From assembly GCA_033439255.1 (NCBI GenBank), contig CM065880.1, positions 1,302,001 through 1,366,000 on the forward strand: a DNA stretch of 64,000 bases. The letters run 5' to 3'. The position numbers and the translations under genes were made by a program. This document shows positions 12,188 to 38,081 of this stretch, piece after piece; the first letter of the stretch is position 1, and the number at the start of each line of letters is the position of its first letter. Under the pieces are notes generated by a model. That model was not told the origin of the DNA. It saw only the letters and a program-made list of their open reading frames with translations, and searched no databases. The DNA comes from Hericium rajendrae. Lineage: Eukaryota; Basidiomycota; Agaricomycetes; Russulales; Hericiaceae.

Positions 12188-13912
12188 CATCTGAGAAATT
12201 AGAAATTTATATAGCTCAGTACTAAAGTATGTGTCCTAGGATAATGCTATGAGGTCTATGTAGCCATCCTTGCACCTATGTTGAGCTATGCACCTTATCA
12301 TAGCCTTCATAGCAGCAGGCAGAAGGTATATAGTCCTATGTAGCTGTAAGCCATTACTATCAGAGCTATGTACCATCATAGCCTTGCTATGGATTCTATC
12401 AGCCTTATGTCAAATATGGTAGACTTCATAAACACAAGTCAAATTCTCAATTTTTTAAAGAGGGACTTCCATTTTCAAAAATAGTTTCTGGTATATACAG
12501 CCAAACTAGTTGTAATTATAAATATAACTAGGGTAGCATTGCATGCATGTAGATCACGGCCATGCACATCATATAGCAGTCACACGCGGGCTGCTGACAT
12601 CGCGTGCAGCCCACTGACATTGTGCGCACGACATCGATACCCTGTATACGACAGCAGGGTTGCACGCGGGGCATTGCCTGCTGCGCTGTCTTAAGGTGGC
12701 TGCTGGGGCCCGTACACGTGGTGTTACGGTCACGCATATGTGTTGACAATGCACGCGAGGTGCAGCAGAGGGCAGAGAGGTGGTGTGGATAGCGCGGACA
12801 TGGCGTGGATGGCGCGGACATGGTGCGGACGCAGCGCAGATAGCGTGGAGGCGGCGCAGAATGCATAGAGGCGGTGGGGAATGGCGAAGGTGGCGGGGAG
12901 TGGGCGAAGGCAGCGGGGAGGGCGTTGACATGGCAGGGAGGGTGTTGACATGGCGGGGAGGGCATTGACATGGTGGAGAGAGCGCGGATGTGGCAGGGAG
13001 GGCATTGATGTGGCGGGAAGGGTGTTGATGCAGTGGAGAGAGCACGGACGCGGCGGGGAGCATGGTGATGGGGCGGGGAGGGCGGTGACAGGGCAGGGAG
13101 GGCGTTGGCAGGACGGAGAGGGCGTTGACGCAGCACAGAGGGCGTTAACGCAGCACAGAGGGCATTGATGTGGCGGGAAGGGCGCAGACACAGCGCGGAG
13201 GGCATAGACGAGGCACAGAGGATGGGGACGTGGTAGAGAGGGCAGGAAGGCTTGTCGGGAGCGTGGGCACTCGTTCTCCACTGTCAAGACCACGCACGAC
13301 CCACGCAGTTGGGGGCATGGAGGCACGCAACTGGGCGTGAGTAGACGGGCAGACACAGATGCGCACAGCTGGGGTCGTGCACGGGCACAGGCATATGCCA
13401 TCGAGGACGTACGTGCTTGTCTGCACTCGTGCAGGAACGGGCGGGACGAGTACCACGAGTCCAGTTGCCATGGCAACGGAACTCGACGTTCATTGTGTCG
13501 TGGTGCCGCAGCTTGTCGTGGCCATATCGGGGGGTGGTGAGGTGGGGTGTAGGCTTCCGCAGTGGTGCAGAAGGCGCGAGGGATGGCGCAGGCTGTTGAA
13601 GCTATGCGCGGGATGTTGGGGTGAGCCACGGGGCGTTGGAGGCATGCGCAGAGAGTTGCGACACAGCAGCGATGTGGGAGGTGGATGCGACGAAGATGCA
13701 AGGAGGACGGGAATGGGGAAAGGGTGGTGATGGGGGTGTGGAGGCACGAAAGAACGAGTAACAATGAGAGTATTGCTCGTTATCCGAGCGATACTCTCGG
13801 AATTAGTATGAGAAGCACAAATACAGATGTTTCTTTACTTACCTTGAGCCCTCTGAGCCTCCTACCAATCCTGCTGATCTTTGGGATGACAAAAAGCAAG
13901 GGCAAGGAGGAG

Positions 13913-16812
13913 CATCTGAGAAAACTGAATTTTATATAGCTGCAGGTTATATTATAGGTGCTATCATTAAGCTATAGAAGCTATGTAGCTTGCCTATCTA
14001 GCTATGTAGAGCTATGAGAGCTTCCATAGCTTTCATAGCTAGTAGTGTCAGTTATATAATGCTACCATAGCTTCCATAGCCAGCAGTTTGAGATATATAG
14101 CACTATCACACTTGGTAAGGTAAGCTATGACTACTATCAGTACTATCAATACTATGTCGAGTCGAATAGGTACCAAGGTACCAGATATTCAAAGTCAAAA
14201 TCAATTATATTCAACATAACTACTACTACAGACAAGTACACTACAATACAAATACCACAGGCACGCGCGCACTGGCAGGATACACATGTGCACGAGGCAC
14301 GGCATGATGCAGCAGTCGTGGGCAAGGTACGGCGGGAGCGTGCGAGAGGCGCGTGGGGGGAGAACGAGGGACGATGAGGTATCGGTGGGCAAGTAGAGGC
14401 GCCGCGAGGTGCTCGGGGCAGCGGAGCGTGCACGCGAGGCGCGGGGCGTGCACATGAGGCACGAGATCAGGCGGGAGGCATCGAAGGCGGCATGAGGTGA
14501 GGGCCGGCGGCGGGCCCACGCGCAAGGCGCGGGAGGCGGGCTTGCAGGGCATGCGCGATGCGGCAGGCCCGCACGCCGGAGGTGGGAGGCGCTGGAAATG
14601 TGCGAGGCACGGCGAGCGTGCGCGAGGCATCAGTATATGACGGGCCCGTGAACGAGACGTCAGCAGGCCGCGCGAGACTTGCGGGGCGGCGCAAGGCCCG
14701 CGGTGGGTGCACAGGCCCGCAGGGCGTGCGTGAAGCGTCGGGAGCGGGCTCTGTGCACGAAGCGCGGGGGATACGCGCGACGCGGCAGGCCCGAGCGTGA
14801 CGCGGAAAGCCCGCATGCCGGAATCGCAAGGCGCAGGGACGTGTTTGAGGCACGGAGGCGCGCGCGAGGCACAGAGGGGGACGTATGCGAGTCGTCGTGC
14901 TGCCGCGGGCCCGTGCACGACAGGCAAGCCTGCGCACGCGAGAGAGCGGCGCGGGACGCGAGATGCAGGGCCCGCGTGCGAGGCGTCGCGGTGGGGCGCG
15001 CCTGGGTATTGAACGTATGTGTCCGGGCGTTGTGCGCTTGTCCGAAGTGTTGTGCGCGTGTCTCCGAGGCGTGGGGGCGTTGCGCGAGTGCGACGAGCGC
15101 GCGGGATGCGGGGCTTGAGGCGTGGCGAGACGTCCGAGTCTCGTTGCCACGGCAACGGGACTCTACGGCGCGCGCTGAGGGATGACGTGGCGAGTGCGCG
15201 CACGTCATTTATGGCACACAGACGGTGCGGAACGACGTCCGTGCGTCGTCCGTGGCCGTGCGCACAAAAGGGGGGGATCGGAGTGCGGGTGGTTTGGGCG
15301 CGGGGTGTTGGGGTTGCGTGCGGGCAGCGGAGGGCGGCGGTGGCGTCGTTGAGAGCGCGGAGGGAGACGGTTGAAGGCGAAGGGGGGACGGAGACGCGGG
15401 AGAGGAGATGGGAGGCGTGGGGGTGTCGAAAGAACGAGTGTCGCTCGAGGACGAGCGACACTCTGCGTTAGTATGAATGAACACGAAAGAATAGCTTTTT
15501 TTACTCACCTGCAGCCCTCCAGCGAACAAAACCCCGCTTGATCCGTCTTGATTGTCGATAGAAGGAGGAGTGAAGCGAGGCGAGCCAGAGAGGGACGGAC
15601 AGAGTAAGGGCAGAGGTGAAGACTGAGCAAGTGAGAAGTCTCGACGCGACTTCGGTGCTTCAGGAACCGAACGAGCGAGTCAAAGTTTCTCGCGACGTCG
15701 CAAATCGAATAAAATGCCTATAATTATAAAACAAAGTACAGTATTATAAAATAGTAATCTACATGGATTGAATGGGCCGATTATCTACATAATGCAGCAC
15801 ACAAGACCGGACGGCAGAGTCAAAGTTATCACGTCTGCCACTTAGCCTCTGACACGGCGCTCGGCTTCGCCCGGCAGCCACGATTCTCGGCTTCGCCCGG
15901 GATTCGTATATAAGGCTTGCGCGACGCGCGTTACCTCTTGCTCCTAAACCCCCACCATCCTTGTTGCCACGTCATCCTCGACGTCGTTGCTCCGTCCCTC
16001 GTCGTCGTCGCTACCTGTCTTGTCATCGTCGGTGCCTCTCTCGTCGTTGTCGGTGCCTCTCTCATCGTCGTCGGTCTTTATCGCTCGTTGTCATTGTTCT
16101 TTTTTCTTATCATTTCTCTTTTCTTATCGTTGTTCTCTCTTAAGGTAAGTTTCTATTCTTCGTCTATCATGCCTGATACTAATGTTTGTATACTTGTTAT
16201 ACAGTACTTTTGTATGCTTACTAGATAAGCAGTGTTATGTCTACATACTCTTGTAAGTTTTCGCTTTTGTGTTAGTTTGGTAAGCTTCTATGTTATCTTT
16301 ATCATCTTCTAATATTAATGTCTTTGTCTTATTTATATTTTCGCTTTTTATAGGTGTTATATGCTTGTTATCTTTTGTAGTTAGATAGTGATCTTTGTAG
16401 CTAGTAGTGTCATATAATAAAATTATATGAAAAATATAATAATTTTCAAGCTTTTAATATTTGTGATTAAGATATATCAAATTGTCGAGCTAATAATTTT
16501 TTCAACATGCTAGAACTACATATTTGATAGAAGTGATATAGTGTGAATAGCAATCTTACTAGCTAGATATAATATGACAATGGTGATATAGTATATAGTT
16601 GATATAGCTTCTCTAGCTATTTTATACTATAATAAATATGACAGCTATGATATCTTAGACCATATGCTATGGTAGCTATGGTCAGCTATGATAGCTATGC
16701 ATAGATTACTTGACTGCTATGAGACTGCTATGTAGAAAAGAGGACAGCTATGGACCTAGGAAAGCTATATAGCCTACATAGTGTTATATACCAGTAGTAA
16801 ATTTCTCAGATG
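13913..16812 (+). mobile_element. Element B: complete 2.9 kb CATC-ended TIR element nested in A
   Basis: The termini are CATCTGAGAAAA on the left and TTTCTCAGATG on the right, flanked by the duplicated dinucleotide AG (13911-13912 and 16813-16814). Layout: an AGCTATAG-rich left arm; a GC-rich block (14240-15470); a near-palindrome at 15136-15163; a hairpin at 15433-15461; a CTTACCT signal; a spacer; a promoter-like segment with CGGCTTCGCCCGG repeated twice and a TATA box (15907-15913); a pyrimidine-rich leader; splice-donor-like GTAAG after 16145 and acceptor-like TTTTCGCTTTTTATAG near 16345; then an AT-rich right arm. No protein-coding gene is credible. It is the most intact copy beside D. 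Confidence 0.8.
15907..15913 (+). promoter_or_regulatory. TATA box of element B, reading toward its right end
   Basis: TATATAA sits in GATTCGTATATAAGGC, about 95 bases downstream of the CTTAGCCTCTG motif. The same placement is seen in A (17157), C (TATAAGG at 19010) and D (32270), which supports a conserved element promoter directed toward the right terminus. Confidence 0.6.
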
Positions 16813-17254
16813 AGGAAAACAGGGTACAGGTGCAAAGACAAGGGGGAGCTATCGAGGAATTGAGTGAGAACAAGGACAAGTCGAACGACGCGTCTTAGTG
16901 CTTGAGCGTGAGTGATCGAAAGTGCGAGTTCAAACATTTCAAACTTCATAATAATCAAATCAAATTGTTATAATTCAGAAAAAAAGATAGTACATATAAT
17001 TTTCTCATACTATTCGATTGTATGTGCTACTTGTCTAACTAACGTACTGTATGCTACTGAGCAACAAACACAAGTTAACAAAATCTATCACTTAGCCTCT
17101 GGTGCAGTGCTCAGTAGCGCCCAGCAGCCATGATTCTTGGCTTCGCTCGGGATTCGTATATAAGGCTCACGCGATGCTGATGTGTGGACCCTGGGAATGG
17201 AGGCGGCAGCCAAAACCAAAACCAACAGAGTACCGGGGGGTGCGAGGGGACCAA

Positions 17255-19834
17255 CATCAGGGAAATTGGAATTCTACATAGCCCAGTGTTGGGTTATGTG
17301 TCCTATCAGAGTGCTATGAGGTCTATGTAGCTATCCTTCTTAGCTATGTAGGGCTATGAGACCTATCATAGCTTCCATAGCAGTAGGTGGAAGCTATATA
17401 GTGCTATATACTTCTGAGGGGCAGGTATATAAACTTGTCAGCTTGCTATGGTCCCTATAGCTCCTATGGCCCCTACATTTAGTGAGCTAGACTCCATAAC
17501 CATCCAGTCAAAATTTTCATATTGCACACTCGAAAGCATGGCAAAAATTATATATTTATTAACTCCTACTAAATGACATTGTAGCTACAACACAGAAGTA
17601 AATACAGTAGTGAATGCTATATGTGCACGAGGTGCACGGACTCTGCACGACACGGCACAGCCATGCACAAGGCGAGGCGGCTGTACACACGTGCGAAATG
17701 CGAGGGCCGTGAGCGACACAGCGAAGCCCTGCACGCGTCACGAGGGCCATGTCAGGACAGCGGGATCACGCGAGTCGGCGGGGGTACATGCGAGGTGCGG
17801 GAGCCATGCATGAAGCAAGGCGGCATCACGCACGAAACATAAGGGCCGTCGCGACGCAACAAAGCCTCTCGCGCGTCGCGGGGGACGTGCGCGAAGCACG
17901 GAGGGCGTGCGAGCAGCACGAGGGTGTGCGCAGTCAGCTGGGCCACGCACGAGTCGCGCGTGATGTGCGCGTGACAGCAGGACCACGCATGCGACGGTGG
18001 GGTCACGCGCGCGATGGTAGGGGCATGTACGCGGCGATGGGGTCACAAGCGTGGCCATGGGTGCATACATGGGTGCCTTTGGGCACTCGGGGGCGTGCGT
18101 GGGCACGGGCATGCCTGTCGGGGGTCATCCGAGGCCGTAAGTGTGCAGCCGGAGGCAGGCGCGGGCGGAGTGTCGGAACCCGTGAGCAGGCAGGTGGAGG
18201 CGGAGAGGTGGGCAGGCAGGCGGAGGCAGAGGCGTGAGCAGGCAGGCGGAGGCGCAATCGCAGGCTTGCCTGTGCTGTCAACGCTGTGCGCTGAAGCACT
18301 GTTGGCGGCGCGGGCTATGTGTGCGCTGTGGGGCCATGCGCGGGCATGCACGGACTGCTGGGGCCGTCACACGTGTCGCATTGCACTTGCTCGAGCCTCA
18401 TTGCCACGGCAATGAGGCTCGACGAGGTGGGCAGCGTTGAGTCGGTGGCGTTGTCGGGGAGATGTGGTAGCGGGCGCAGCGGGGTCATAGTCGAGGGGAA
18501 TGGGGCGGTGTGGGGTACGAAGATACAAACACGCGAGTATCGCTCGTGTAAACGAGCGATACTCGCTTTGTTAGTACGAAAAGATAAAGAATATTGTAAT
18601 TACTTACCTAACACGACCCTCCCCACATCTACTAGCCCATCGGAGTGTCGAACGACGCCTTGCGTCGTGTGTTGACTCTTGAGCGAGGTTGAGTGAAGGA
18701 AGGCGAGAGTGGAGAGAGGAAAGTGAGGAAGTCGTGCCTAAGTCCCTCAGCCACAGAGCACTTGACGCGAGCCCAGCTTTCTTCGACATCAGAAAGTCAA
18801 ATAAAATCGTGATAAATCCAGAAAAAAGGGAGCTTCTACATATTATTCGTAAGACCAGAATCAATGAGCTAACTAGATATCTAACGGACAGTACGCTCGC
18901 GACCCGGGAAGTCAACTTAACCAAGTCTAATTCCTAGCCTTTCTTGCGGCTCTCGGCAGCGCCCGGCAGCCACATTTGCGGCTCCGACCAGGCACGTCCG
19001 GGCTCAGCCTTATAAGGCGCGCGTGACGTGTCGTCTCTTTCCTCCCAACCACAACAATCTCTTCTGCCACGTCGTCATCTCTGCTCGTCGTTGTCTGCTC
19101 ATCGTTGTCTGCTCGTTGTTATCTCTGCTCGTCATTCTCAATGGTACAGTTGCTATTGTTTTCTTTCTTATTCTTATACTAATGCTAAGTATTATCTTAA
19201 TAGATTTTCGCTTTTCTAATGCTTTGGTAAGTTCACCTTGCAGTCTTTGGTTGTTGTGTCACTCACTAGTGTGTGTATACTTATTAGATTTTCGCTTTTT
19301 TGTCACTTAGGGTAAGTTTGTTTGTGATCTTTTGTATTGACTTTAGCTAATGCTTATCTTTTGTAGTGTTTGTATTTAAAATTTCATAGCTTTATGTAAT
19401 GTTTATTAGTTCTATTATGTTGTAGTTAAATAGAGTAAATAAATGAAATTATGTTTTGATCAATAATGTGATTGATTTCAGGCTATTGATGTGATCTTTT
19501 ATTAAATATATAGAATTCTGTTTGTTATTTAATTGTAGATTGGATAGTGTAAATAGAGTCTATTGCTTGTATAGATATATCAAGTCTATCTTGTGAATAT
19601 AGCTTACATCAATGATATAGCTTTCATAGCTTCTATAGCTACGTATCCTATTATAGCTGTATAATCAGCTATGATAGCTATGATAGCACTTCATAGCATC
19701 TCCCTTGATCTCTATAGCACTATATAGCATTCCTCCTTAGCTATATAGGCTATGGAGTAAAGGGCAATGCTATGGCTCTAGGAACTCTATATAACTCTGA
19801 TAGAGCTATGTAGCATCTCTACATTTTCCTGATG
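17255..19834 (+). mobile_element. Element C: complete 2.6 kb CATC-ended TIR element
   Basis: The left end CATCAGGGAAATTGG and right end ATTTTCCTGATG are flanked by a duplicated AA (17253-17254 and 19835-19836). The internal order matches A, B and D: AGCTATAG-rich arm, GC-rich block 17600-18560, near-palindrome 18392-18421 centred on ATTGCCACGGCAAT, hairpin 18536-18563, CTTACCT at about 18603, CGGCAGCGCCCGGCAGCC-like segment, TATAAGG at 19010, pyrimidine-rich leader, two TTTTCGCTTTT tracts (19206 and 19290) each followed within 30 bases by GTAAGTT, then an AT-rich arm with AGCTATAG repeats. No transposase is visible. It interrupts sequence just after the broken end of element A. Confidence 0.8.
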
Positions 19835-21240
19835 AAGTATCTCAAGAGGGGAGTGCCGGGATGTGTAGCTGACGGGTGACCGTACTACGGGTGGGGGAGC
19901 AAGATCACAGAGGGCGGGCTTGCTGCGTGCGGACGACTTCTGACACGGTTCTGCTAGGGACGATGACAGTACGACAAGACTCACGGGTCTTAGGTGATAT
20001 GGCTTGTAGATAACGGCGTGACGACGAATATGATGAATACGATGAGCGGGACGAGAAAGTGAGAAAGACTATGTCTGAGACGTGCTTAGAAGCTGGCTGT
20101 GAGAACATCAAACGATGGGCTTTGTGAAATCTGAGCTCTGAGGGGAAAAGGGCAGACTCCGTTCTGATTCTCCAAGTCTGTAGCTATGGTACAAATGGGC
20201 AAGGCCGCCTCAGGCAGCCCGGCGTGACTTTCTATGACAACCTCCTGCTGACTGACCCAATCTCCAATTCCTTCCTGATCCTGCCTGCTCTGGGTCCCTT
20301 GGCGAGTGGAGTCATTGCGGCTCGGCCCGTGCAGGGCAGAGGGCATGAGCGTGGTATGAGCGAATCAAAGGCGCTGCCTTACAACGCCGCCCGGGGCATG
20401 CGTCGGGAATGGCAGGCACGTCGAGCTGGAATGGCTGGGATGACGTCAGTAGCGCACTGTCGCGGGTGCCGCTCGTGATCCGGGGGCATGTGGGCATTCG
20501 AGGGCACGTTGATTGAGCCGGTTGGTTCTCTGAGCGCGCTTCTGTTCCTGTGCTGCTGACTCATCCGGTCGGTTGATCTCCGGCCCGTTCAGTGCATCGG
20601 ACCACGGGACACCGGCTTTAGTCTGACCCGGTTGGTCCCAAACCTGTGGGGGTGCTTGTCACTGCGGGCAAGGTCCAGTGTAAGCCAGAGATCCATTGAT
20701 ATTGCATTTCAGTTCCCTGGATAACTTACGCAAGAAGAGCTCGTTGGGCAAATGATGGTCAAAATGAGTATATTCTCAGTAGTGAGACCGTCATTTGGTG
20801 CACGCGAACATGGCCATGTGATCGCAGAGTACATGCCGAACATGCATGTAATCAGAATGCGATCAGCGTGATGCTGAACGGGCCTATGTCGAGACCATTG
20901 CAGAGGGCATAGACAGTGCTAAACAAATGTTTTTGTATAACTCATGTCTTCCGCTTTGTCCAGGAAACTACAACAATATAGCCATGTCCTCAAAGCTCCC
21001 ACGAGGCCTTGCCCGCAGTGTGTCCTGTGCAGGGAGCAATGTCGCAGTGGGCAGACTTGGTGCGGCTGAGGTGAAGTGGAGCGGGACGGGCAAGGAAGCG
21101 GGGAGTGGGCAATGCCGTTGCAAGGCACGCTAAGGGGTGCATCATTCTCCCCCTAACTGAAAATTTAGACTCTCCGTAGTCTAATCTGGAGCCCCACGAG
21201 AGATTCGGGTGCAGGCATGCGTGAATCTAATTGCACCCTG
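19835..21240. other. Unassigned transposon-like sequence
   Basis: Short open frames on both strands are visible but none has a motif I recognise. A CTCCCCCTAACTGAAAAT motif at 21147-21164 recurs at 45925 near the Cys-cluster gene, so this may be the flank or long terminal repeat of another mobile element. I cannot support any gene call. Confidence 0.35.
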
Positions 21241-21262
21241 GGCAGGTGTGCTGCAGTGAGCC

Positions 21263-21269
21263 TATAAAA
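21263..21269 (+). promoter_or_regulatory. TATA box upstream of a frameshifted transposon-like gene
   Basis: TATAAAA in GCCTATAAAAGGC lies 65 bases upstream of the ATG at 21334, a spacing suitable for a core promoter. Confidence 0.5.
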
Positions 21270-21333
21270 GGCAGCTACGCCCCGGGAGGGCACTCAACTC
21301 CGAGCCATCTTCGCACCCAGCAGTCTTGTCCCA

Positions 21334-22042
21334 ATGAACACCTTTCTTGATCAAGTCTTCTGCCAGAAAGTGACCTGGCTCCTTGCGGAGTGCTCTGGAC
21401 CCCGCTTGATGCGTCCACGCTGTCCAAGCGTGACGCGGTCATCCGAGAACGTGAGATCTGGGGTCGAGACCTCATGGTTGCCGTAGTACGTCCAAGCTCG
21501 CTTGCGGTGTTGTTGCATACCTGCTAATCTTGGGACTCCAGAAGGACTACCAGCGCTATGCCGGCACCATCGACGTGGGTCTGCAGGATGACATCACGCA
21601 GATGTCAGACCACTTCCTGTCCGAGGCTGCCCGCGCGTCCAGGAAAGTCCACCGTTGGCTCGACTGGGGTTGGTACCTCATGCCGTCACTGAAGCGCGAG
21701 TGGCTCGATTCCCTGGAGCATCATCAGGTAGATGCCATGGACCGCCTGTCTGTGGTCGAGTCCGAGCTGTGGGAGACGCGCTGCACGGTGGCCCTGGAGG
21801 AAATCGATATCACCTGCCGCAAGTACCAGTATGACATCATAGATGCGGAGGCCTGCAAGTGGGCTCTGGAGCCGTTGTTCGCCAGGCTGCATCAAGCGGT
21901 CTCTGCGCCGGAGTTGCCGTGGGAAGATGCCAGGGGGGGAGGTGAGCGAGGATCCGCACGAGATAGAGATGATGCACCGCCTAGTGGCAGAGGCACTCGA
22001 CCTGGCCAAGCTGCTGCGGCTTCCGCCCTACTAAGCAGATGA
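21334..22042 (+). pseudogene. Frameshifted hypothetical protein of a mobile element
   Basis: A TATA-driven reading frame starts with MNTFLDQVFCQK at 21334, probably splices out an intron ending near CTCCAG at about 21540, and continues as a helical, Trp- and Glu-rich protein (RKVHRWLDWGWYLMPSLKR, then LEEIDITCRKYQYDIIDAE). Near 21932 a run of seven G separates the two best frames: the continuation EVSEDPHEIEMMHRLVAEAL is in another frame and ends at 22034, while the original frame becomes low-complexity and ends at 22042. A one-base slip in the G run explains this. I do not recognise the family; helical accessory or Gag-like protein of a mobile element is a guess. Confidence 0.5.
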
Positions 22043-22171
22043 GGAGGGTGCCTGCAACAGGGTCACGGGAGGGGCCGCAGATTAGTATAGTACGATGTAT
22101 GCCGATGGCAAGCATGCCTCGCCGCTCAATTGAACTATTCTGGTGCCGAAGCGCAGGGACGTCAGTTGGTA

Positions 22172-22802
22172 AGATTGATCCAACCCATAAGTTGTAAGGG
22201 GTTATGGATTGATCCAACCCACAAGTTCTAAGGCAGTTACCTACCCTATACAAATGTCATCCGATACATATAGAGAGGTATCCATTGTTACAATCTCATG
22301 TAATCCAATCCAATCATATCCAATATTCTGCACACATTATCAATCTTAGGGCAGTCAAAATATAATAGATTAATCCAATCCAATCCAATCCAATCTGAGT
22401 ACCATAAACTATATACAATCTACTCCCATAGATCAGTCCAATCCAATTCTAAGTCACAATCTGATCCTATATGCTTGCAAACAATCCATTAATCTGACTT
22501 GCACGATCCAAACGAATCCGAACTCATACAAACGAATCTGACAGCATCCGATTCTCTACCACCCCATCCAATCCAATACCAGGCCTCCTGACTCAATCCG
22601 ACCATATCCGAACACAAGCCATCTCATCCGTAGCCATCCAATCCAATGACATCCCATCTGACTTTATTGAATCCGACTTCATCGAATCCGACATCATCGA
22701 ATCTGACTCCATCCAATCCGACTTCATCGAATCGGACTCCATCCAATCTGACTTCATCGAATCGGACGTCATCGAATCCCATCCAATATTAACCAATATC
22801 AT
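22172..22802 (+). repeat. Left terminal inverted repeat of the giant KDZ element
   Basis: Contains, from outside in, two GGATTGATCCAACCCA-type direct repeats, a TACCCTATACAAATGTCATCC block, ATCCAATCCAATCC microsatellite-like runs, and an inner minisatellite of about 20 bp units (GAATCCGACTTCATC variants, 22670-22780). The inverted partner is 42861-43435. The left copy is longer because it has more minisatellite units. The transposase stop codon lies at its inner edge (22799-22801). Confidence 0.85.
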
Positions 22803-25800
22803 CCACCTTCATAACCATAATCAGTGACAGCTAATGAGCAATCTCGTTCTAGCACAAGACATACATCAGCGAATTTAGCCTTTTTAAGTGCACTTGCATG
22901 GAAAGTAGCTGCATCCTGGGCCAGACGCTCGTAGATCGACCTGTGCTTGTGGGCGTATGCTTCAGCGCTGCATGTCGTTGCCTCAGAGGCCAAGACCATC
23001 CACGCCTTGCTCATTGTCATGTGCAAACGTTGAGTGTTTATGAATTCTTGATCAGTTATGTCAATTTCTTCTCGCCAGCGTTGACAGTCTGCTCGATCGC
23101 GGAACCATTTGACACGTTCACCTGATGCATATCGCATCAGTGTCAAGATAGGGAAGGATGCAAAAACATGAACTTAGCGTACTCTCCATGCTCCATTCGG
23201 CTTGCTCTTCCTCAGTCAGCGCTGATGGACCAATTACTGTCCAGAACCAAGGATCTGGCTTCACTGTATCACCTAATTGCAAAGTCAGGACAATGTAGCT
23301 TATGATCCAACATGTCACTTACCAATCTGCCGAGGTCGAGTGGTGTCTTTCATCCAAAGGTCCTCGTTGTGTAATGGCTGCAACACCACATCATCCCCGG
23401 CCAGACCCAAACTCACTAGCGCAGCACGAGCACGACGATATTTGTCAGCTGCGCTGACTTGATCACGTTTGAGGTCACAAAGGAATGCCTGAGCTCATGT
23501 TGTTGGACCCTGGTTGAAGATGTTGGACTTCTTGAACTTGAGATTGTAATTGAACATCTTGATCGCATGTCGGACATCACGGAGGGCGTCGTGAGCTTGG
23601 CCAACATGTAAGTCGTACTCCACCGACCCTGCATCACCAAGGCCTTGAGCCTTCCGAGTAGGCTCATTGAAAGACGACATTGAGGAAAGTACGAAGGCTT
23701 GAAAACATCATCAGTTGACGCTGCTGCCAACGATCAAGCTCGTTACGGAACTTGAGTCGGCCTACATCTAAACACTCCTGTTCCGCAGGCATGCGGACTT
23801 TGATTGATGCCAATACCTGCAGATGTGCTCTGCCGGACATTAGAACAGAGGAATAATGATAGAAGTTCTGCACTCACTGTTCTGCTTCAAGACGTAACCC
23901 ATCATTGATCATCGCAACTACTCCTGCAGCCCCCTGATCACTAAGAGTGCGAACAGTCTCATCTTGGAGTAGTTCTTGAAGTTTCGAGAACTGTGTTGGT
24001 GGACCTAACGTGTCCGTCAGGCCACTCGACAAAGATGAGAAAAATTGCAAGGAAGACATACCTTTTCTTGCCTTCGATGCATAAACACTGGTCACTTTCC
24101 CATTGACAACTACTGGCTTGCAGTCCATGGCAGACCACTGGGCAACCAGCGCCTGTCCGTGTCGTGCGCAGAGTGCCTTGAACGTAGTATTATTCTGATG
24201 AAACATTGCCGCTGCATTTGTGTGACACTGATACAGGGACCGAGCTAAATCAATATGAGATATGGTATTCGTTCTTGGAACTACAAGAACGTACTCATCG
24301 AGATAACCTTCTGCCAGTTCCAGTACCCATGGAAATCATCTAAGATGTCATGTCGATGACCGGCATTCATCTCCTTGGTACTTCCTGCCGTCTGATTGCC
24401 TTCAGCCCATGCCGTTTCAATCATCTCCCCAAATGTTCTGCCAACGTGGGAGGTCGTATTGAAAGAGAATTGTAATTGGCAGTCTTCAGTGTGGCCCATG
24501 ATATGCAACTTCAGCACAAGTCCTTCGATCCGTGCGGCGATATCTTTCATCTCTGGGAAATGGGCATCTACACGCTTGAGGAGCTTAACTTTATACTGAC
24601 AAAAGATGTTGTAGCTGAACTTGATGTAAGGAATACTGCTGGACTCGATCAAGGCAGACATCAACGCATAGTCGGTGTTACAGAATCTGGGGTGAGCGAA
24701 TGTCAACAATGACAACACTGGGGTCAACCAGGAGTATAAGTCATACCTTTCACCTTTCTGCAAATCAACCATGCCCTGAGGCCAAAAGAAACTATGCCGC
24801 ACACACTGAACACCGTCCACCCCACTCACAACTGTATGCTTAAACTTCAGAAGGTTTTGCAGACGGACGACATTCAGACGGGCACATGTGGATCTCTGCT
24901 CATATGTCAGCATTGAGCGGGGGTACTATAAGTAATGGTAAGATGACCTCGTTGTCTGTTGCGATTCCCATCTTCTTGAGATATTCGTTGTATGCTCGTG
25001 TCTCGACAAAATAAGCATTGCCTTGCAGTAGCTCCACATCATCGGGATCGTCGATTTTGACTTTGCATTGAAGTCTGAAGTTGCCATCGGCAGACAGAAA
25101 TAAGGTATATCTATGCCTGGGACGGACAATTCAGCTCGTCTCACTCACATATGCATGCAAAAGATTACATACATGTCTTCAGGTGAGATGTTTTCCAGTT
25201 CTTCCAGGCTCACATTGACACTGGGTTTGATGCATGCAGGACATCTCACTGTATAAGAGCCCTGTCGTCGCAGTGTCAAAACCTTGTCGATGCCATGGGC
25301 TTGTCCTGAACGACGAATCATCGCGAGGGCACGCCAAACACGCCCGACTCGCTGAAACTCTCGACGGCGATCCTAGTGATGCGGATCAAAATTATAGAAG
25401 TCAATTTGCTCGATTCAGATTGCTCACAGGGGTGTTATTGGGGAACACATTGTCTGTGTGCCATTGCAATGCAGCATAATGGTCGTATGCAGATTTCTTG
25501 GAAGCTAGAGTGTGAAGATGGAAGTCATCAAGGACATGGAAGGTAAAAGCAGTCTGGGGTAGATCCATGGTTGCCGGAAAGAGGCCCTGACCCAATAATT
25601 GAAATGCTTCTGAGGTGGCACCACGGCAGCGGCAGTAGTCGACTTTGATATGATGAATGCCACTGGTATCGACGATGACTAAATCCTGCCCTCGCGAAGT
25701 TGAGGCACGATTCGGACAGCGATGGCCGTGGTGCCCTAGGCCGACGATCAACCCTAGGTCCTTCAGCGAAGAGCGCTCAAAAAAAAGGCCGTTCCACTTC

Positions 25801-26288
25801 TGGATTCTGTGGAAGGGAGAGTATTCATGACTAGATGTCATGCATGCGTGACAGGAGGGACGGCGCTGCCAGCAGTCAACGCAGCGATAAGTGGCTGGCG
25901 GTGCCTCTGGACTGCAGGTGCAGCGGTGTTCGACTGCGAGGTCAAATTCACGACCAAGGATAGTATCTTGAATGGCAACCATGTTGTCGATAAAAGATTT
26001 CATGAAGGTGCTCGCACCCTAAGGTAAATAAGTGAGCTGCGTCTCGAGGTAATTGACAATCAGACGTACCTGTGGTCATTTCGTTTCTTTGCATGCCTTT
26101 TCAGGCTCCGTCGTCACCAACGTTCTCCCCGCCGTCATCGATGGAGGTTTCCGCTTCCTCGGAGAAACGACCTTATGGAAAGTTCTTTTGGCGCCGTGAT
26201 TCCGACTGTAGTTCAAGCCAATCTCGATTTCGTTGTCTTCTTCTGAGTCGCTATCTATGCAGCCCGTGACGCGTGATCGTTTCGGCAT
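22799..26288 (-). CDS. KDZ-family DDE transposase with CxC2 cysteine cluster (copy 1)
   Basis: Transposase of the KDZ superfamily, presumably mobilising the giant element. It starts with MPKRSRVTGC and a basic, acidic-patch N-terminus (26288-26079). The CxC2-like zinc cluster on 26018-25428 has CTCSPEAPPATYRCVDCWQR and HACM. Best exons thereafter: 25372-25173, 25116-24948, 24895-24747, 24686-24295, 24244-24060, then less certain ones to 22799. Typical landmarks are VRCPACIKP, RYTLFLSADGNF, SFFWPQGMVDLQKGER, CNTDYALMSAL, FSYNIFCQY, LKLHIMGHTEDCQ and GRTFGEMIETAW. Two oddities: the first exon runs into a TGA just before its apparent splice donor, and the position that is Asp in the second copy (SYDIACQ) is Asn here. 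Activity is therefore doubtful. Family assignment is firm, exon ends at the 3' side are approximate. Confidence 0.85.
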
Positions 26289-26731
26289 AACAAGGGAAAT
26301 TGGAGTCTCAAACTGTAAGCTGGGAGGCAAGATAGTAGGGGCGTACAAGATGGAGATGTGGCAAACAGAAACTGTCAGGGTAGTTGGGGAACTTGTATAT
26401 ATTGCAAATAATAAGAATACGAAAAGCGACTGTGGCCTACTCCGACTATTGTGGCTCGGCACGGCAAGACACGACACAACGTCCGATCCCCCGCGCATTG
26501 TTCGCTATGTGGCAAATCGTTGTGGACTCGCAGCTCCACATTGTGTACCACAACACCGCGACATGGCGGCGAAAGATGATTGCAGGGGGAAACAACGATT
26601 AAATAACAATAAAGAAAATAGTAAACTATAACACTTACCGGTCTCCTCTAAAAGCAGCAGCGCAGGCTGATGAATATTGAAGGGTCGAAGAGAGTACACG
26701 AACAGTTCCTTGCGGGTCAAAGTCCATCGTA
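26289..26731. other. Intergenic spacer between transposase and captured host-gene fragments
   Basis: No gene is supported. The spacer presumably holds the transposase promoter, since its ATG lies at 26288 on the minus strand. Short frames on either strand lack recognisable motifs. Confidence 0.5.
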
Positions 26732-27058
26732 TCACTTCGCAGCCTTCACGTCGAACGCATGCTCAGAACCTGTCGTCTCGTCCATGGATACCGGTGCTGA
26801 CTCTTCCTTCATAAAGTCATCAGCGACGATAGGCTCGAGACTGCCATCACCAAGGGTGGAGGCGAGAGCTTCGAGTTCGTCAATGCGCTACTGGATGCGA
26901 GCCTCTACAAAGTGATTGCGCTCAGCGAGGCTTTGATGTGGATCAAGGCCAGCCGGCATAATGGAGGGTATGAATAAGCGCTGCAGATGACTAGCAAAAA
27001 CGGAGGGGTTCGAGCCTGCAACATGCTTGATGTAGGTGAAGGGATCCACGTAGGAGTT
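26732..27058 (-). pseudogene. Captured fragment of a SNF2-type chromatin-remodelling ATPase (N-terminal region)
   Basis: On the minus strand the translation runs YVDPFTYIKHVAGSNPSVFA, then LFIPSIMPAGLDPHQSLAER, NHFVEARIQ, a stop, RIDELEALASTLGDGSLE and an acidic tail to TGA at 26732. This order (hydrophobic QLQ-like segment, LxPSxxPxGLDP, xERxxFxEARIxxRIxELExL) is what I know from the region before the HSA domain in fungal Snf2/Sth1 proteins. The in-frame TAG at 26888-26890 stands where glutamine is expected (CAG to TAG). Neither the helicase domain nor the bromodomain is present, so this is a fragment, joined in the same direction to an RFC1 fragment. Identification is by memory of the family and needs a homology search. 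Confidence 0.6.
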
Positions 27059-27248
27059 CACAGGAAAGCCAGCGAGTCAACATCCTCCTCTGATAGAGAT
27101 AATTTCGGCACTTCATCGTTCTGGCTCATGTCTTCAGTCTTCAATGCGGCGCCCTCGATGGAACAGGGGTGGGCAAAGAAGTGGATGCGAGAGGGATGGG
27201 TGGTGCATCGCCTGGTTCTTTTTGCACCTTGCCCTTGGCCTAGTGGCC

Positions 27249-28185
27249 CTGACATTATGATAGCATGGAAGACATTCATGCCAGTTTTCCCTGGTCTCTT
27301 GAAGCCAGACTTGAGACTATTGGACCTAGAACGACGAAGCTCAGTTTACAAATGTCTGCTTGCAAAAATGAATCAACAAACCAGTCATCCAACCACGTCT
27401 GTAGCTTCTCGGCCTGCCCTTTATTCCCACATATCTCCTTCAAGGTCTGCGGTGCGTATTTGTCTGACGGCCTTCCTACTAGCATGATAAATAAAATTGA
27501 CCCCACGCATATATTGAGATCAACGACGTACCTTCCAGGTTTGCCAAAGCCTGCTTTCGCAGCTTCGGTCTTCTTGTGTTTCTCCATTTCCTGAGCGCTG
27601 TCTCGGATTGCCTGCATCTCCTTCTCCATCTTCTTCTTTGTCGTTTCATCCAGGCCTTCTCCACTTCCGAGACCTTTCTGCATAGCGATCAGCTCCAAGA
27701 ACTCGTCCTCAGACAATGCAGCAAGGTTCTGCTTCTTGATCGCAGCGAGCTTCGCAGGACCTGCACCCTCTGCGAGCACAACCAATGATGTCTTGGATGA
27801 CGGCTGGCCCGCAACACGACTGAAACCCCATCAGCCCTCTCGAACGACCAATAGAAGATACATAGCACATACCCACCAAATCGCTTCGCGAGATCGACAG
27901 CCTCCTCGCAAGACAAACTCGAAAGCTCGCCTGGAAAACTGAATGCAAGCCCTGCTAGACAGTCTGGATCAGCTGGATCAGCATTTTCCGGAATCGCTTT
28001 GGACCCGGGTGCGCTGGGCCCCGCTGCCTTCGCTGACCTTGCCACAGATCAACTACGTATCGGTAAGTAGAACGAATCATTGGAGCGACGGCTTGCACGT
28101 ACTTGAATTTCTTGGGCTTCTCGTCCACCTCCTTGGCGTCATCCTTTGCAACGGTCTTGACCTTAGGTTCCGAAATCAGCCTCAT
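27249..28185 (-). pseudogene. RFC1: Captured fragment of replication factor C large subunit (BRCT domain and start of AAA+)
   Basis: Rfc1 loads the PCNA clamp at replication forks. Minus-strand exons 28185-28103, 28052-27874, 27819-27532, 27479-27382 and 27325-27249 splice at GT-AG sites and give, in Rfc1 order: EKPKKFN; PDCLAGLAFSFPGELSSLS and AVDLAKRFGG (BRCT); RVAGQPSSKTSLVVLAEGAG and PAKLAAIKKQNL (BRCT); a Lys/Glu linker with KKKMEKEMQAIRDSAQEMEK; DKYAPQTLKEICGNKGQ; and LKSGFKRPGKTGMNVFHAII. The sequence stops matching at the Walker A loop (SGP, then unrelated residues), so ATP binding is lost. At 28049-28051 a TGA replaces the expected tryptophan after KKFN. Conserved introns show that genomic DNA, not cDNA, was captured. 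It lies inside the KDZ element. Confidence 0.8.
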
Positions 28186-28245
28186 TCAAAGCGATGTCAG
28201 TGATGAACTTATGGCTGGACGGTCATAGCACGCATTCCGTATGAT

Positions 28246-29258
28246 ATGCACCCAGGAGTGAGGGATTGTGCCAATCAATGGGCCCTCATGGTGGACAAAC
28301 GTTGTCTGACCGCGAGGGTTGTCCACCGAAGTGACAGAGAATCGAGTCCGCGACACAGGAGACGGAACACGACAGCAAAAGCAAAAGACCAAAGTAAGGT
28401 AAAAAAAAAAGTGTCGATCCCCTTGATGGCACGCAGCAAGTCGTGCTCACGAAGACCCAAAAGGGTTGGAGCAACAGGTGAGTTGTGCGCCAGGGAATCG
28501 ACACAGGAAGGAGAAAAAAAAGAAGGCCGAAATGCACCCAGGAGTGAGGGATTGTGCCAATTGATGGGCCTTCACGGTGGACAAACGTTGTCTGACCGTG
28601 AAGGTTGTCCACCAAAGTGACAGGAGGCGAGCCTGGGAGAGGTGGGGGGATTGGAAGTTGAGGCCTATAGCAGAGAATTAGCAGGAACGGATGAAGGAGA
28701 TAGACTTACCTTGCGACGCGAACCGGTGTTGCCGCCTACCCTAACCCGGACAAGTCGATCTTGCTAGTTGCTTATGTCATGGTGGCTTGCTAGTTGCTTA
28801 TGTCAGGCATTCGCTCTTCCACTTCGACATGCCACGTAGTCCTTACCTCCGTCAAGCGGTACATACTACTGGAGCAGCAAGACCATTTGCAAAGTAAGTC
28901 CATTCGTTTCTTGGTCCTTAGCAGCTTAACTTTGATTTCAGGTTGTTATCACCTCATTCTCCACTTCCCCCACCCCCCCGGGCTCGATTCTTTGTCACTT
29001 CCGTGGACCACCCTCGCGGTTAGACAACGTTTGTCTGCCGTGAGGGCCTATAGATTGGCACAATCCCTCACTCTTGGGTGCATTTCGGCCATTTTTTTTC
29101 TCTTTCCTGTGTTGATTCCCTGGCGCGCAGCTCACCTGTCGCTCCAACCCTTTCGGGTCTTCATGAGCACAACTTGCTGTGTGCCATCAAGGGGATAGAC
29201 ACCTTTTTACCTTACTTTGGTCTTTTGCTTCTGCTGTCGTGTCCCCTGTCTTACGGCC
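28246..29258. repeat. Imperfect 0.28 kb inverted repeat with an extra direct copy, between divergent cargo genes
   Basis: The segment 28350-28645 is repeated in inverted orientation at 28982-29258, with conserved blocks such as ATGCACCCAGGAGTGAGGG, GACAAACGTTGTCT and TTGATGGCAC. A third, direct copy of the ATGCACCC...GAAGTGACA part lies at 28246-28345. The repeat separates the minus-strand RFC1 fragment from the plus-strand gene starting at 29284, so it could be a duplicated promoter. The 0.3 kb spacer has no gene. Confidence 0.7.
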
Positions 29259-31639
29259 ACCCTCAGGATTTTGTGCGCTCAACATGGCTCATCCATCATC
29301 TTCTCGGCGTCCTAAGGTACGTTGCATGCTTCATTTATTTTTAATGGTATTTGATCAATGTCTGATGACGGGAATCATGCATTCGTAGGCCTTCTCCTTT
29401 CCCTACTCAGCCTGGACACCGCTACAGTCTTCGGGGGAACTTATCACCGCAGCAAATACACGGATGATCCCCACGCCGTTGGACGGTTCTGCGACGCCTC
29501 AACTCCAGTTAGACGGGTTATGGGGCATGCATGAATGGACTCGGTTTCCACAGATTTTTGATCCCTCTGCTCCGTTTCTAGCATATATTCCTGTATTGTT
29601 CTTGAGCTCAAGTGAGCGCCATGCCGTCCTCGGACGTGCTGTGTCGAAGGAGATATGGACACCACACCCTAGTGATCGCCAGAAGCATGTTGCCCAGCCG
29701 TCCGTCCTTAGTGCCCTTCGTGAAGAATGGGAATGGGCGACCGCGATGACAACACGGGTTTTCCCTGCCATCCAGGCCACAAAGGGCATGGAACACATCG
29801 CGCTGCCCCACACTGCATGTGCACGTGCTCTGGATTGCTACGAACTCCTCAAGCATGGCATTCGTGCCTGGCGCGAGTTCGTCATCATTTTCCGCCATCT
29901 GCAGTGTTGTCTTCTGGAACTGGTAGCCTTCGATGAGTGGTGGTCAGACTGTCATATCCCCGAATCCATACGAAAAGATAGTCATGCTGTTCGGGAGCAT
30001 CAGGGGAGATGTCGGGGTGTCTACGCGCCGGATCTTGTTGTCTATTCAGGTTTAGCCAAGTCGGGGGTTGCTGTGTATATCATTCTTAAGGCCGATGAAT
30101 GGACTCTGGACTCGGACAAAATCACTCGAATGACACAGCGGGATGTTCGATGCAAGCTTGCTCCGTGGCCTGAGGCGATGCTCAAGCACAACGGACCCCA
30201 TTGGTGGTACCCAGAAACTTCGAGCCTGCCGCGCGGGGGACTGCTCCTCGGGATGATCACTTCAATCCTACGGATGAGTACAAGGGAGTTCTAAAGAAGC
30301 GAGAGGAGACATCGAAAGGTAAGTTTCTGATTTAGCTTATGTGGTGCATTTAGGCTCATTTTCGTGCAGCACACATCTGAGAAAATGGTTTTTTATATAG
30401 CTGCAGGTTATTTTATAGGTGCTATGGGTGTGCTATGGGAGCTATAAATCTTTCATATCTAGCTATGTAGAACTATGAGACCTATCATAGCCTCCATAGC
30501 TAATAGTGCCAGCTATATAGTGTCATCATAGCCTTCATAGCCAGCAGTTTGAGATATATAGCACTATCATACTTGAAGAGGTAGCCTATGGCTACTATGG
30601 TTACTATTGTCATTATGCTAAGTCAGCACTAGTATTAAAGATCCCAAGTCAAAATTCTTTATTTATAATCGGAGACTACTATAAACAAGTTTACTACAAT
30701 GTACTACTAAAGATAATTAGATTTGAAGAGTCCCTCTGCCTGTGCTGCAGATGATGCGGCATGCGCACGCGCACGAGGCGCGGAGCGCGTGTGCAACACG
30801 GCGCGCATGCGCACGAGCGTGTGCAACGCAGCGGGCACGCGCATGAGGCGCACAGCGGCCTTGCGCGATAAAACGGCATGCGCACAAGGCACGGATGCCG
30901 TACGTGACACGGCAGGCCCGCGTGCGAGGTGCGGATCCGCACCTGCCGCGCGCGGGAGCGAGGCGCGAGGTTCGCGGGCCGTGTGCGAGGCGTCGGGCTG
31001 CGGCGGGGCCTGCATACGAGCGCGGGGTCGTGCGTTGGCGTGTGCTGGCTTGCATGCACTACCGTGCGTGAATGCGGCCATATCTCCGCTCGCACGGCCG
31101 TGTGCAGGGCAGCACAGCCAGGCGCAATGTAGGCGGGGCAGACCGCGAGGCCACGCGCGGAACGGCGGGCCCGTGCACGACAAGCAGCAGCCATGCGTGG
31201 CCGCCTCCGCACGTTGCGGGGCAGTGCGTCGCCCCCGGCATGCGGTCAGTGTGCTGATGAGCCCTGCCAGCGCACTTGCAGTCCGTACGTGGCTACGGTC
31301 GTGCATGCGCTGACCTGACCGTACGCAGGGGCACTGGCGTCATCGCGGGGCCGTGTCCGTCCGTCCGGGCGCTGGCGCGGGCCTGCGAGGCTGTGCATGC
31401 ACCCATGGGGCCGTGCACGGGCAAACCAGGGCGGGTGCAGGTGCACTGGCAGCCCTATGCGGGCATTGCAGCGACGCACGGCGCTGGTGACGTGTCGGGT
31501 GCGGCGGGGGCGCGAGGATGGCGACGGGATGCGGTGGGGTGTGGAAATGGCGGCGGCAGGGACGGGGTGGGCAGAACAGTGGGTGCGGGCTGTTGGAGCT
31601 ACGCGGCGATGTGCAGGAGGCGGAGCGAGGCACGCTGAA

Positions 31640-31669
31640 CGAGTCTCGTTGCCATGGCAACGAGACTCG
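31640..31669. repeat. Perfect 30-bp palindrome in element D
   Basis: The arms are exact complements around the centre GTTGCCATGGCAAC. Related near-palindromes occupy the same place in A (13456-13485), B (15136-15163) and C (18392-18421), about 110-270 bp before a second hairpin that ends the GC-rich block. Conservation across four copies suggests function for the element, such as protein binding or an RNA hairpin. Confidence 0.7.
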
Positions 31670-32269
31670 ACGACGTTGTCGTCTGCGTTGTCGAGGGAAT
31701 GAGGCAGGTGTGGGGCAGAGATCGTCGGCGCGGGGTATCGTAGCATGTCGTGTGGGAGTGGAGGGTATTGGCCCGAAGGCAAAGAAATAAAAGAAAATGA
31801 GTATCACTCATGCAGAGCACGAGCGATACTCGTTTTATTAGCACGGTACATAAATAAGAAAGACTGTGCATACTTACCTGAAGGCCCTCAGCACAGTTCT
31901 TAGCCCTTCTGCAAGGCGACGCGAAGCGTCGAGTGTGTGGAGAGGGAGGTATGCGGTTGGAGACGAGAGAGGAGGGAGTGATCAGGTCGAAAGCGCAAGT
32001 TGCACTTCAGCCACAGGACTCGACTTGCGCGGTTGAGTTCTTTCGAGCACAACAAATTGAATAAATCGATTGTAAATCAGAAAAAAAGACTCGTAGTACA
32101 AAATATACATAATCCAACATTACATGAGAAACAATCCTAGATATTGTACCGTAGGCCACTGACCAGCGACGACAACTTACTCAGATCTGGCACTTAGCCT
32201 CTGTTGCGGAGCCCGGCAACCTTCGGCCCGGCTCTCGGCAGCCACGTTTCGGGCCCCGCTCGCAACGCC

Positions 32270-32276
32270 TATATAA
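32270..32276 (+). promoter_or_regulatory. TATA box of element D, reading toward the downstream cargo exon
   Basis: TATATAA in CGCCTATATAAGGC, followed 30-60 bases later by a CT-rich start region. It points at the right terminus and at the interrupted gene beyond. Confidence 0.6.
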
Positions 32277-34025
32277 GGCATGCGCGACGCGCGTCCTCTC
32301 TCTCTCTTTAACCCCCACCATCTCCCGCTTTTATGGCCTTTTGCTCTTGTTTTCTAAGCCTTTAAGGTAAAGTCTCTTATGTTTCTTATGTTTCTTATAC
32401 TGATCTTCTTATGTTTCTAGTTGATTTTGCTTTTTTGTAGTCACAGTAGGCCTTGGAAGGTAAGTTTTCTTATCTTTATTATTTTCGTAGCCTGATGTTT
32501 TTATATCTGTAGTTCATTTTCGCTTTTTGTAATCTTGGTATATTTTTCTTGTTATCTTATCTCTTTTTTTTTATCTTATCTTATCTTATCTTCTTATCTC
32601 TATCATAGATTATAAATTTGTATTAGATTATATATTAATATAGTCACTTGTATAGTTTATATTATTGTTATAAATGTTTAATAAGATTCACATTGCTTTG
32701 CTCTTTTTGTTGATTTAATTGTGCTATAATATCAAGTATAATTTGAGATAATTCAGATAAATAAAATATAGTGTAGAAAGTTGACATAGTCTTGATAATC
32801 TGAGATAAGATAACTAGTATTCATATAGTTTATAGTATGAATAGTACATATATAATATATAGTTAGCATAGCTCTCATAGCTACTTTATACTATGATAGC
32901 TATGATAGCTCTCTATAGCTGTCCTATTTGGCTCTATAGCTCTATATAGATGACCTTATAACTATATAGAGGTATGAAGAAAAGGAGACAGCTATGGAGC
33001 TATTAGAACTATGTAGTCAATATAGTCATATATAGCTGTAACAGTTTTCTCAGATGCAGTCTCGAGAGCCAAAGCCGGACATCCCGCATAACGAGTGGCG
33101 ACGGTGGTACAATACTTCTGATCCGCCATCTTGGATGCGTCGGCCCGTCGAAATCTATCGAAATGCCATGTACATGGTGAACCCCCACACGATGAAGGAC
33201 ATCGGCACCTCGTGCCCCTTCCAAGTCCCTCTCTTCCATTTATTTTGGGGCGCTACTCCTGAGAATCAAACCGTCTTCTTCTGACACACTCTGCTCTTAT
33301 GACATGCGTTAGACAAACGGTTTGCTCGCAATGCACTTGGTCTCAATACGCGCGACTGGAAGCGTATCCTCGGAGACTCGTATTGGCATTGCCAATGGCC
33401 TATTGTAGGTGACACATTCGACGCTGCTGTCGACCCTGCGTATGACTCGTATCATTTTTGGGTGTATGGAGGCTCTGTCATCTTTGGCCCCGATAACGAC
33501 ACCATCATTGTTAATCCGGACGAAGCAATTTCGCCCCTAGACTGTGGCTGTCCCGTTGACAATGATGCTGCGAACGACCCGGATATTCGCTATGCTGTAT
33601 TATATCACTTGGTCTGCCAGACGATTCAGTCAGATTTTGACGCGATGCATGCGAAATGCATCAATCCCTCATCCACATCCATCTCAAACAATGATCTGCG
33701 CAGAGCTATCAAAACTTTTCTTGGGTTGACAAGCGATGGGCGTGAGGCTCTGTACGAGCTGGAGTGGACGAGGTGCATTGGATGGGTGGCGGCGTTGAAA
33801 GACATCTTGCAGCATTGGCCGGGCTTTGATCAGCAAAAATGGCAAAGAGTCTCCCGTATGCGAGATGTGCGCTTGAGCGCATTGGATGAACAGTCATTCC
33901 AGAGTGTGGAGCGCCAATTACTGACGTTCTATGTACAGACTTTCATCGATCACCTAGGATATCTGCCGGCACCCCTACTCCCCGCTCCTCCCTTCCAGGA
34001 GATTTGTTGCCAATGTCATCGATAA

Positions 34026-37839: not shown

Positions 37840-38061
37840 CATCAGGAACCCTACAAACTTTCTGCTGTGTCTGATGTATCTGATTGTATCTGATTGTTCT
37901 TATAAATCTGAAATCTTATAAGTTATTTCTGATTATTTCTGACAGATGACACCCGTCTTAGGCGTCTGACTACCTGATGAATCTGAATGTTGTTATCAGT
38001 TTCTCCAGATTTCAATCAGATTTTATAAGATTTTATAAGATAGTTTGTAGGGTTCCTGATG
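37840..38061. mobile_element. MITE5: 222-bp CATC-ended MITE inside element E
   Basis: Ends are CATCAGGAACCCTACAAACT and GTTTGTAGGGTTCCTGATG, with TA duplicated on both sides. It is noncoding and younger than element E, into which it inserted. Confidence 0.8.
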
Positions 38062-38081
38062 TAAGTAATCATTCTAATCTC

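Follow-up and report, generated by a model that had tools for sequence, protein, structure and literature searches.

Four related elements, A to D, lie between positions 12188 and 33056 of a 64,000-nucleotide stretch of Hericium rajendrae DNA (assembly GCA_033439255.1, contig CM065880.1, positions 1,302,001 to 1,366,000; below, the window), and the question they raise is what transposable elements of this length carry if they encode no transposase. The window lies on contig C3 of a 46.8-Mb genome in 19 contigs; patterns were searched genome-wide unless stated otherwise. We believe, with a probability of roughly 0.6, that these are non-autonomous PlavakaB-like cut-and-paste elements that contain a conserved noncoding transcription unit, divergent and probably spliced. 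The usual view of non-autonomous DNA transposons is of ends plus filler; here many diverged copies retain an ordered noncoding unit.

Copies, ends and target duplications

Comparison of the copies demonstrates, at the level of sequence, ends of about 11 bp (CATCWGRGAAA), 2-bp target duplications, TAGCTATG-rich arms, recent movement, no recognisable transposase, and no coding signal in the GC block. In 14 of the 15 complete copies read (B, C, D, L039, L040, L042, L056 and L065-L072) the 2-bp flanks are identical: AG, AA, CA, TG, AT, TC, GA, TT, TA, GA, AT, CT, TC and AG. The preliminary description of this DNA had called B, C and D complete, and the matching ends and duplications are indeed seen in B (13913..16812, plus strand, 2900 bp, duplication AG), C (17255..19834, plus strand, 2580 bp, AA, ends CATCAGGG/CATCAGGA) and D (30374..33056, plus strand, 2683 bp, CA, between two open reading frames). 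Complete copies free of nested inserts measure 2578-2991 bp. The longer ones are composite: L065 (5.9 kb) contains a second module and palindrome of its own family on the opposite strand, and L039 (4.4 kb) contains the long terminal repeat (LTR)-like repeat X. A facing end pair of 5.9 kb, known by position only, is at 1307987-1313865 of contig C7.

The same description ascribed to A-D a shared anatomy of AGCTATAG-rich arms, a 1-kb GC block, hairpins, a CTTACCT signal, a promoter-like segment, a CT-rich leader and GTAAG/TTTTCGC words. This stands, except that A is not intact, being split by B and cut by repeat X; the exact word TTTTCGCTTTTTTGTAG, also listed there, is in none of A-D (B-D hold shorter forms), and it is exact in element E, discussed below. 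The left part of A (12188..13912, plus strand) has the left end CATCTGAGAAA, the arm, the GC block, the hairpins and the minus-strand intron signals, and its continuation, read from sequence, runs to its TATA box (16813..17177, plus strand), where X begins; this boundary, at about 17178, comes from the copies L002-L005 and L039. The left arm of A is 69-77% identical to the arms of six other copies. The right part of A was not found, thus A shows neither the leader nor a TTTTCGC tract. Because B is nested in A, X cuts A, and C is nested in X, A must be older than B and X, and X older than C.

Three copies on contig C12 (L070-L072, 2831-2833 bp) are 99.96-100% identical apart from single-base gaps, and their flanks are unrelated; since they are near-identical in unrelated surroundings, the family, as far as sequence can tell, has moved recently, and these three copies very recently.

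Contig C12 carries all five C-type end pairs of 2831-2834 bp, and the three of them that were read are nearly or wholly identical. Such clustering suggests local hopping.

The family is not confined to a few loci. Exact patterns gave 181 CATCTGAG-type ends (also given as CATCTGAGAAA-type), 61 CATCAGGG-type ends (also given as CATCAGGGAAA-type), 67 promoter segments and 340 leftward modules of splice site, branch point and hairpin, each with no match in the reversed-pattern control; the rightward intron-like unit was matched 275 times (once in the control), and the extended form of the X-box palindrome 54 times among the matches listed, six sites being counted on both strands (none in the control). 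These counts exceed chance, and the proposal of a family of transposase-less terminal inverted repeat (TIR) elements is strongly supported.

Co-linearity of the pieces, which had been set beforehand as the test of this proposal, holds where testable. It was counted on contigs C1-C3, for which the matches are listed in full. A divergent module is upstream of 20 of the 27 promoters on the opposite strand, with 369-412 bp between the listed starts, and no other arrangement of promoter and module within 100-700 bp occurs for any of the 27. Of 52 left ends, 28 have a module facing them at a distance of 1299-1826 bp, and two show another arrangement. An exact left end is thereby tied to 28 of the 91 modules; the remaining modules presumably belong to subfamilies whose ends have diverged, or are fragments.

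The divergent unit

The single transcript leaving through one terminus, as envisaged at the outset, is replaced by two divergent sets of signals, one rightward and one leftward; the promoter and splicing anatomy as such is strongly supported at the sequence level.

The leftward set is read on the minus strand, where the CTTACCT of the plus strand becomes a 5' splice site. A CT-rich stretch precedes GGTRAGT..TACTAAC and a hairpin (hairpin 2). GGTRAGT together with the branch site TRCTRAY is present on this strand in all 14 elements considered (A-D, L039, L040, L042, L044, L056 and L065-L069), and in all 14 the hairpin GAGTATCGCTC..GAGCGATACTC or its variant directly follows the branch site, imperfectly in L042. 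Exact-pattern matches to the module, from the 5' splice site through the branch point to the first arm of hairpin 2, are at 13786..13843 (A), 15453..15509 (B), 18554..18608 (C) and 31821..31878 (D), and hairpin 2 is at 13766..13798, 15435..15464, 18531..18568 and 31795..31835, respectively, all on the minus strand. We aligned 17 of 18 module sequences, leaving out L031, which has the hairpin and lacks the branch site in place. Every invariant column of this alignment belongs to the stem or to one of the two splicing signals (5' splice site and branch site). The 13-pair stem has 96.3% of its cells paired, compared with at most 45% when the partners are slid, and 16 cells are changed on both sides, compared with 5.2 in shuffles (none of 500 as high); its folding energy in A-D is 6 to 8 standard deviations below shuffles.

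Hairpin 1 is at 13456..13485 in A, where it was read from sequence as an X-box-like palindrome around GTTGCCATGGCAAC, and at 15136..15163 (B), 18390..18423 (C) and 31639..31670 (D), without strand. Its form GTTGCCAYGGCAAC resembles the RFX X-box palindrome. It was found in 7 of the 14 elements by a scan that overlooked the imperfect one in A and may have overlooked others; its folding energy is 3.4 (B) and 5.6 (D) standard deviations below shuffles. A known RNA family is rejected, since neither of the two Rfam matches in 12000-33200 comes near its gathering score.

The rightward set begins with a promoter-like segment that contains TATATAAGG (diverged in C), followed by a CT-rich leader and by GTAAG words with TTTTCGCTTTT tracts, i.e., GTAAG..TTTTCGC units. 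The segment matches the exact pattern in A (17089..17165), B (15839..15915, as CACTTAGCCTCTG..TATATAAGG) and D (32191..32278), and its diverged form in C (18934..19017) was read from sequence. Exact matches to the intron-like unit, GGTAAG..TTTTCGCTTTT in B, are at 16279..16348 (B), 19226..19299 (C) and 32459..32527 (D); all of these are on the plus strand. Counts in the right third of 11 elements are above expectation, at 20 for GGTRAGY (1.1 expected) and 19 for TTTTCGCTTTT (0.02 expected).

A further element of the window, E (37501..40967, minus strand), has a 20-bp perfect TIR CATCAGTACTCTTACAAACT, a TT duplication and TCTGA-type arms. It resembles A-D in its PlavakaB-type ends, 2-bp duplication, CT-rich leader and TTTTCGCTTTT intron-like units; it differs in its arms, in having no GC block that we could see, and in the arrangement of its intron-like units, which form a tandem array with short spacers after the leader. 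The spacers are mostly 18-19 nt (four exact matches give 18, 19, 19 and 10 nt), and the same or nearly the same spacers are found at eight further genomic places.

The GC-rich block

The block covers 12600..13730 in A (with 20-bp tandem repeats at 12865-13244), 14250..15430 in B, 17650..18500 in C and 30720..31760 in D, and is not assigned to a strand. That of B is CpG-rich (observed/expected ratio, O/E, 1.35 in 14250-15470), matches 951 bp at 99% elsewhere on contig C3, and matched 59 pieces in all (from 40 scored candidates out of 69). As regards a Pack-type interior, one captured from a host gene elsewhere, the pieces that we inspected by eye adjoin family features.

A coding function of the block is rejected, although long open reading frames occur, since these differ among copies and show neither a Pfam match nor a codon signal. 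The search of eight open reading frames of the GC blocks, including that of B, gave no Pfam match, and of the 105 indels in five chosen pairs of copies only 24 have a length divisible by three, while substitutions show no steady codon phase (even in four of the five pairs; no periodicity in C versus L069). Frames that start at the first ATG of the modelled leftward RNA after splicing also vary among copies. The elements contain no recognisable transposase, as stated earlier. Pair identity is 56-78% in the 40%-84% stretch that holds the block and 84-97% in the outer 300 nt of the right arm. For C and L069 the ends share 88-94%, identity is 47-68% in most of the 150-nt steps through the interior, and the GC blocks fail to align by BLAST. 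A CpG-island contrast with host genes proved weak: O/E is 0.96-1.35 in the GC blocks and 0.95 in the genes at 1-9300; the arms of B have 0.21 and 0.29.

Relation to Plavaka and other transposons

PlavakaB (Kojima 2025), as described in the passages of PMC12730594 available to us, belongs to the CMCT clade and has 2- or 3-bp duplications and CATCA..TGATG termini. The 2-bp duplication is shared by 14 of the 15 complete copies, and these termini are exactly those of C and of the 61 CATCAGGG-type ends, while B and D have CATCT. A-D differ from PlavakaB in that they encode no transposase and contain the central divergent unit of promoter, intron and hairpin. In the genome there are 132 Plavaka domain matches (from 123 of 166 candidates scored), against none in 14 control genomes. 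One end was read in each of several Plavaka-coding loci: CATCAGTAATTT in L060/L061; the CATCAGGAA ends CATCAGGAAGAG and CATCAGGAACCC in L053 and L057, with arms of TCTGA words where A-D have TAGCTATG words; and ..CCAGATG, ..CTTTTTCCAGATG in L056/L058/L059. The part of the Plavaka loci read contained no coding copy with TAGCTATG arms, and no coding relative was found in the readable part of loci L045-L063, in facing end pairs or beside one Transposase_21 gene. Because no coding copy sharing their ends came to light, we call the elements PlavakaB-like, judging by their sequence, and leave proven membership in PlavakaB aside.

Other classes fit less well. EnSpm/CACTA elements and their derivatives share the short TIR, the many subterminal repeat words and the mobility of derivatives in trans; however, the soybean element, in the portion of PMC2613891 seen, has CACTA termini and a 3-bp duplication, whereas A-D have CATC termini and 2 bp. 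Tc1/mariner is rejected, since TA is the duplication in only one (L067) of the 14 copies with clean duplications, and the other 13 differ. Miniature inverted-repeat transposable elements (MITEs) are likewise protein-free, numerous and moved in trans, but they measure a few hundred base pairs (under about 0.8 kb), whereas the family of A-D is mostly 2.6-3.0 kb long and has an ordered internal unit; the complete copies are therefore not assigned to this class.

Short Plavaka-type MITEs also exist: one of 222 bp is nested in E (37840-38061, ends CATCAGGAACCCTACAAACT, duplication TA), and a similar one of 211 bp is at 5606-5816 of L054. A B-like element (L073) is inserted in a Transposase_21 (CACTA-type) gene at 1631200-1633200 of contig C3, and position 4510991 of contig C2, judged from positions only, may be a second such case.

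Discussion

We presume that a Plavaka-type transposase made elsewhere would bind the ends and arms and move the elements. CACTA subterminal repeats are bound by a protein that the element encodes and that can be supplied in trans (PMC2613891, in the part seen), and because of this analogy the TAGCTATG arms are likely transposase-binding sites. That the family makes spliced noncoding RNAs is suggested by splicing and hairpin signals kept at hundreds of places, often beside an opposite-facing promoter-like segment. The central region of about 0.4 kb, with its conserved and co-linear signals, would fire two divergent RNA polymerase II transcripts. The rightward one would start after TATATAAGG, continue through the CT-rich leader and, in the right arm, lose at least one short intron (GTAAG..TTTTCGCTTTT..AG). 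Its leftward counterpart would have a CT-rich first exon, lose an intron of about 45-55 nt (GGTRAGT..TACTAAC..AG) and enter the GC-rich block with the hairpin right at the 3' splice site, so that two spliced noncoding RNAs would leave toward both ends. The weakest step concerns the most likely role: transcription might keep the element open for the transposase, and, more speculatively, introns of strong consensus might spare the element RNA from treatment as aberrant transposon RNA. In Cryptococcus, according to the part of a review seen (PMC5851062), transposon RNA that is poorly spliced is channelled into silencing.

Several results weigh against this explanation. L056 has no clean 2-bp duplication, but its empty site is seen in the paralogous copies L058 and L059, which counts in favour of recent movement. 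B and D begin with CATCT and not CATCA, as do the 181 CATCTGAG-type ends; no TAGCTA word occurs within the few dozen end bases read in L060/L061; and, where a larger coding relative with the same ends had been looked for, none of the 59 Plavaka pieces on contigs C1-C7 is between facing exact-pattern ends within 12 kb. Rightward branch points are unsupported as a class, since CTAAY is not enriched in the right third of the 11 elements (22 observed, 34 expected). The codon phases of L068 versus L070 are uneven (98/78/61). Two measures of hairpin 2 do not exceed shuffles: five pairs have double changes compared with 3.5 in shuffles (68 of 500 as high), and eight further pair types occur compared with 7.8 (316 of 500 as high). 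The attempt to assign this hairpin to minus-strand RNA by wobble pairs failed: that strand is not preferred, and because the mismatches are A.C in eight cells and G.U in four, the pairing could equally operate on the opposite strand or at the DNA level. Finally, the conservation of the signals may partly reflect common descent.

The last points bring in the proposal, compatible with the other explanations, that hairpins 1 and 2 are DNA sites for a dimeric protein and not RNA structures. The centre of hairpin 1 is fixed and loop-free in the pattern searched, and the mismatch types of hairpin 2 favour no strand; at the same time, the spacing between the arms of hairpin 2 ranges from 2 to 9 nt among copies, which a rigid dimer site would rarely tolerate, and this hairpin sits 2-8 nt past a branch site in 340 pattern matches. 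We regard the proposal as a serious, if somewhat doubtful, possibility. Deletion-derivative origin is common among non-autonomous DNA transposons, and A-D could be such derivatives of a coding transposon, the promoter, leader introns and hairpin being functionless leftovers of the transposase gene carried along because the ends work. The placement of the signals where a 5' untranslated region would be agrees with that; yet no coding relative carrying them was found, a scan for TTTTCGC words came up empty in the retrieved parts of Plavaka loci L053-L055 and L057-L059, and the one such word in L060/L061 has no matching leader around it. Moreover, the promoter, module and ends stay co-linear across diverged subfamilies despite the low interior identity of C and L069, and hairpin pairing is maintained through double changes (the 16 cells above). 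Such an origin of the signals therefore seems unlikely to us.

A transposase that was not searched for, from another superfamily with 2-bp duplications (another CMCT or an ISL2EU-like group), would account for the failure to find a coding element that shares these ends, and the genome also contains Transposase_21 genes (29 matches above the cut-off). Against it, CATCA..TGATG with a 2-bp duplication is the signature published for PlavakaB (PMC12730594, passages), Plavaka-coding loci of the same genome carry CATCAGGAA ends, and the sole Transposase_21 gene read beside a copy is the insertion target of the B-like element; we give this assignment little credence. Distinctly unlikely, too, is the boldest extension of PlavakaB-like elements with a spliced noncoding unit: protein-free transposons whose divergent pair of noncoding transcripts, one with a covarying hairpin at a spliceosomal 3' splice site, would be kept by selection because they serve the element. 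They might, for instance, release a structured RNA in a step coupled to the spliceosome, or help the element to evade RNA silencing linked to splicing. Element E would then be the same strategy grown into an array of short introns with micro-exons.

The preliminary description had presented the arrangement as not known from described fungal elements. This is only partly so: the ends and 2-bp duplications match PlavakaB in the passages of PMC12730594, while no counterpart of the internal divergent unit turned up in the literature searched. That literature concerned Plavaka, TIR and non-autonomous elements with introns and hairpins, and consisted of titles, the beginnings of abstracts and passages of PMC12730594, PMC9674265 and PMC4457147, most subscription papers being outside its scope; a divergent splice/hairpin unit is not described there. 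The non-autonomous transposon is thus of a known kind, and the conserved divergent splice/hairpin unit appears, within that literature, to be a new variation. Some copies are essentially identical, so that the system may be alive. If the signals work, the success of a transposon would be tied to promoter and splicing signals without any protein, which bears on how fungal genome defence reads the introns of transposon RNA; hundreds of outward-facing splice and promoter-like signals would also be spread across the host genome.

Other features of the window

Repeat X (17178-17254, 19835-20664 and 21021-21144) is LTR-like, about 1 kb long, and interrupted by C and by a segment of about 357 bp; its copy number is high, a 301-bp piece having at least 40 matches in the genome. 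The reading frames flanking D (29389-30294 and 33303-34025) have no Pfam match, and D starts just past an intron-like 3' splice site, TTTTCGTGCAG, that lies beyond one of these frames; the other frame is on the far side of D. Two KDZ transposase genes with CxC2/CxC1 cysteine clusters are on the minus strand (23874-26018 and 50420-52548); together with the Plavaka domains, they would be in keeping with a basidiomycete. An element of about 580 bp with inverted arms of about 213 bp is present in three copies (42124-42708, 47626-48220 and 49499-50078), and the inverted repeat 22170-22803/42860-43436, its halves about 20 kb apart, is 97% complementary over 472 bp. The host genes of the window include those for a SEN1-type protein (3474-9325, plus strand) and a sodium/calcium-exchanger-like membrane protein (1163-3136, minus strand).

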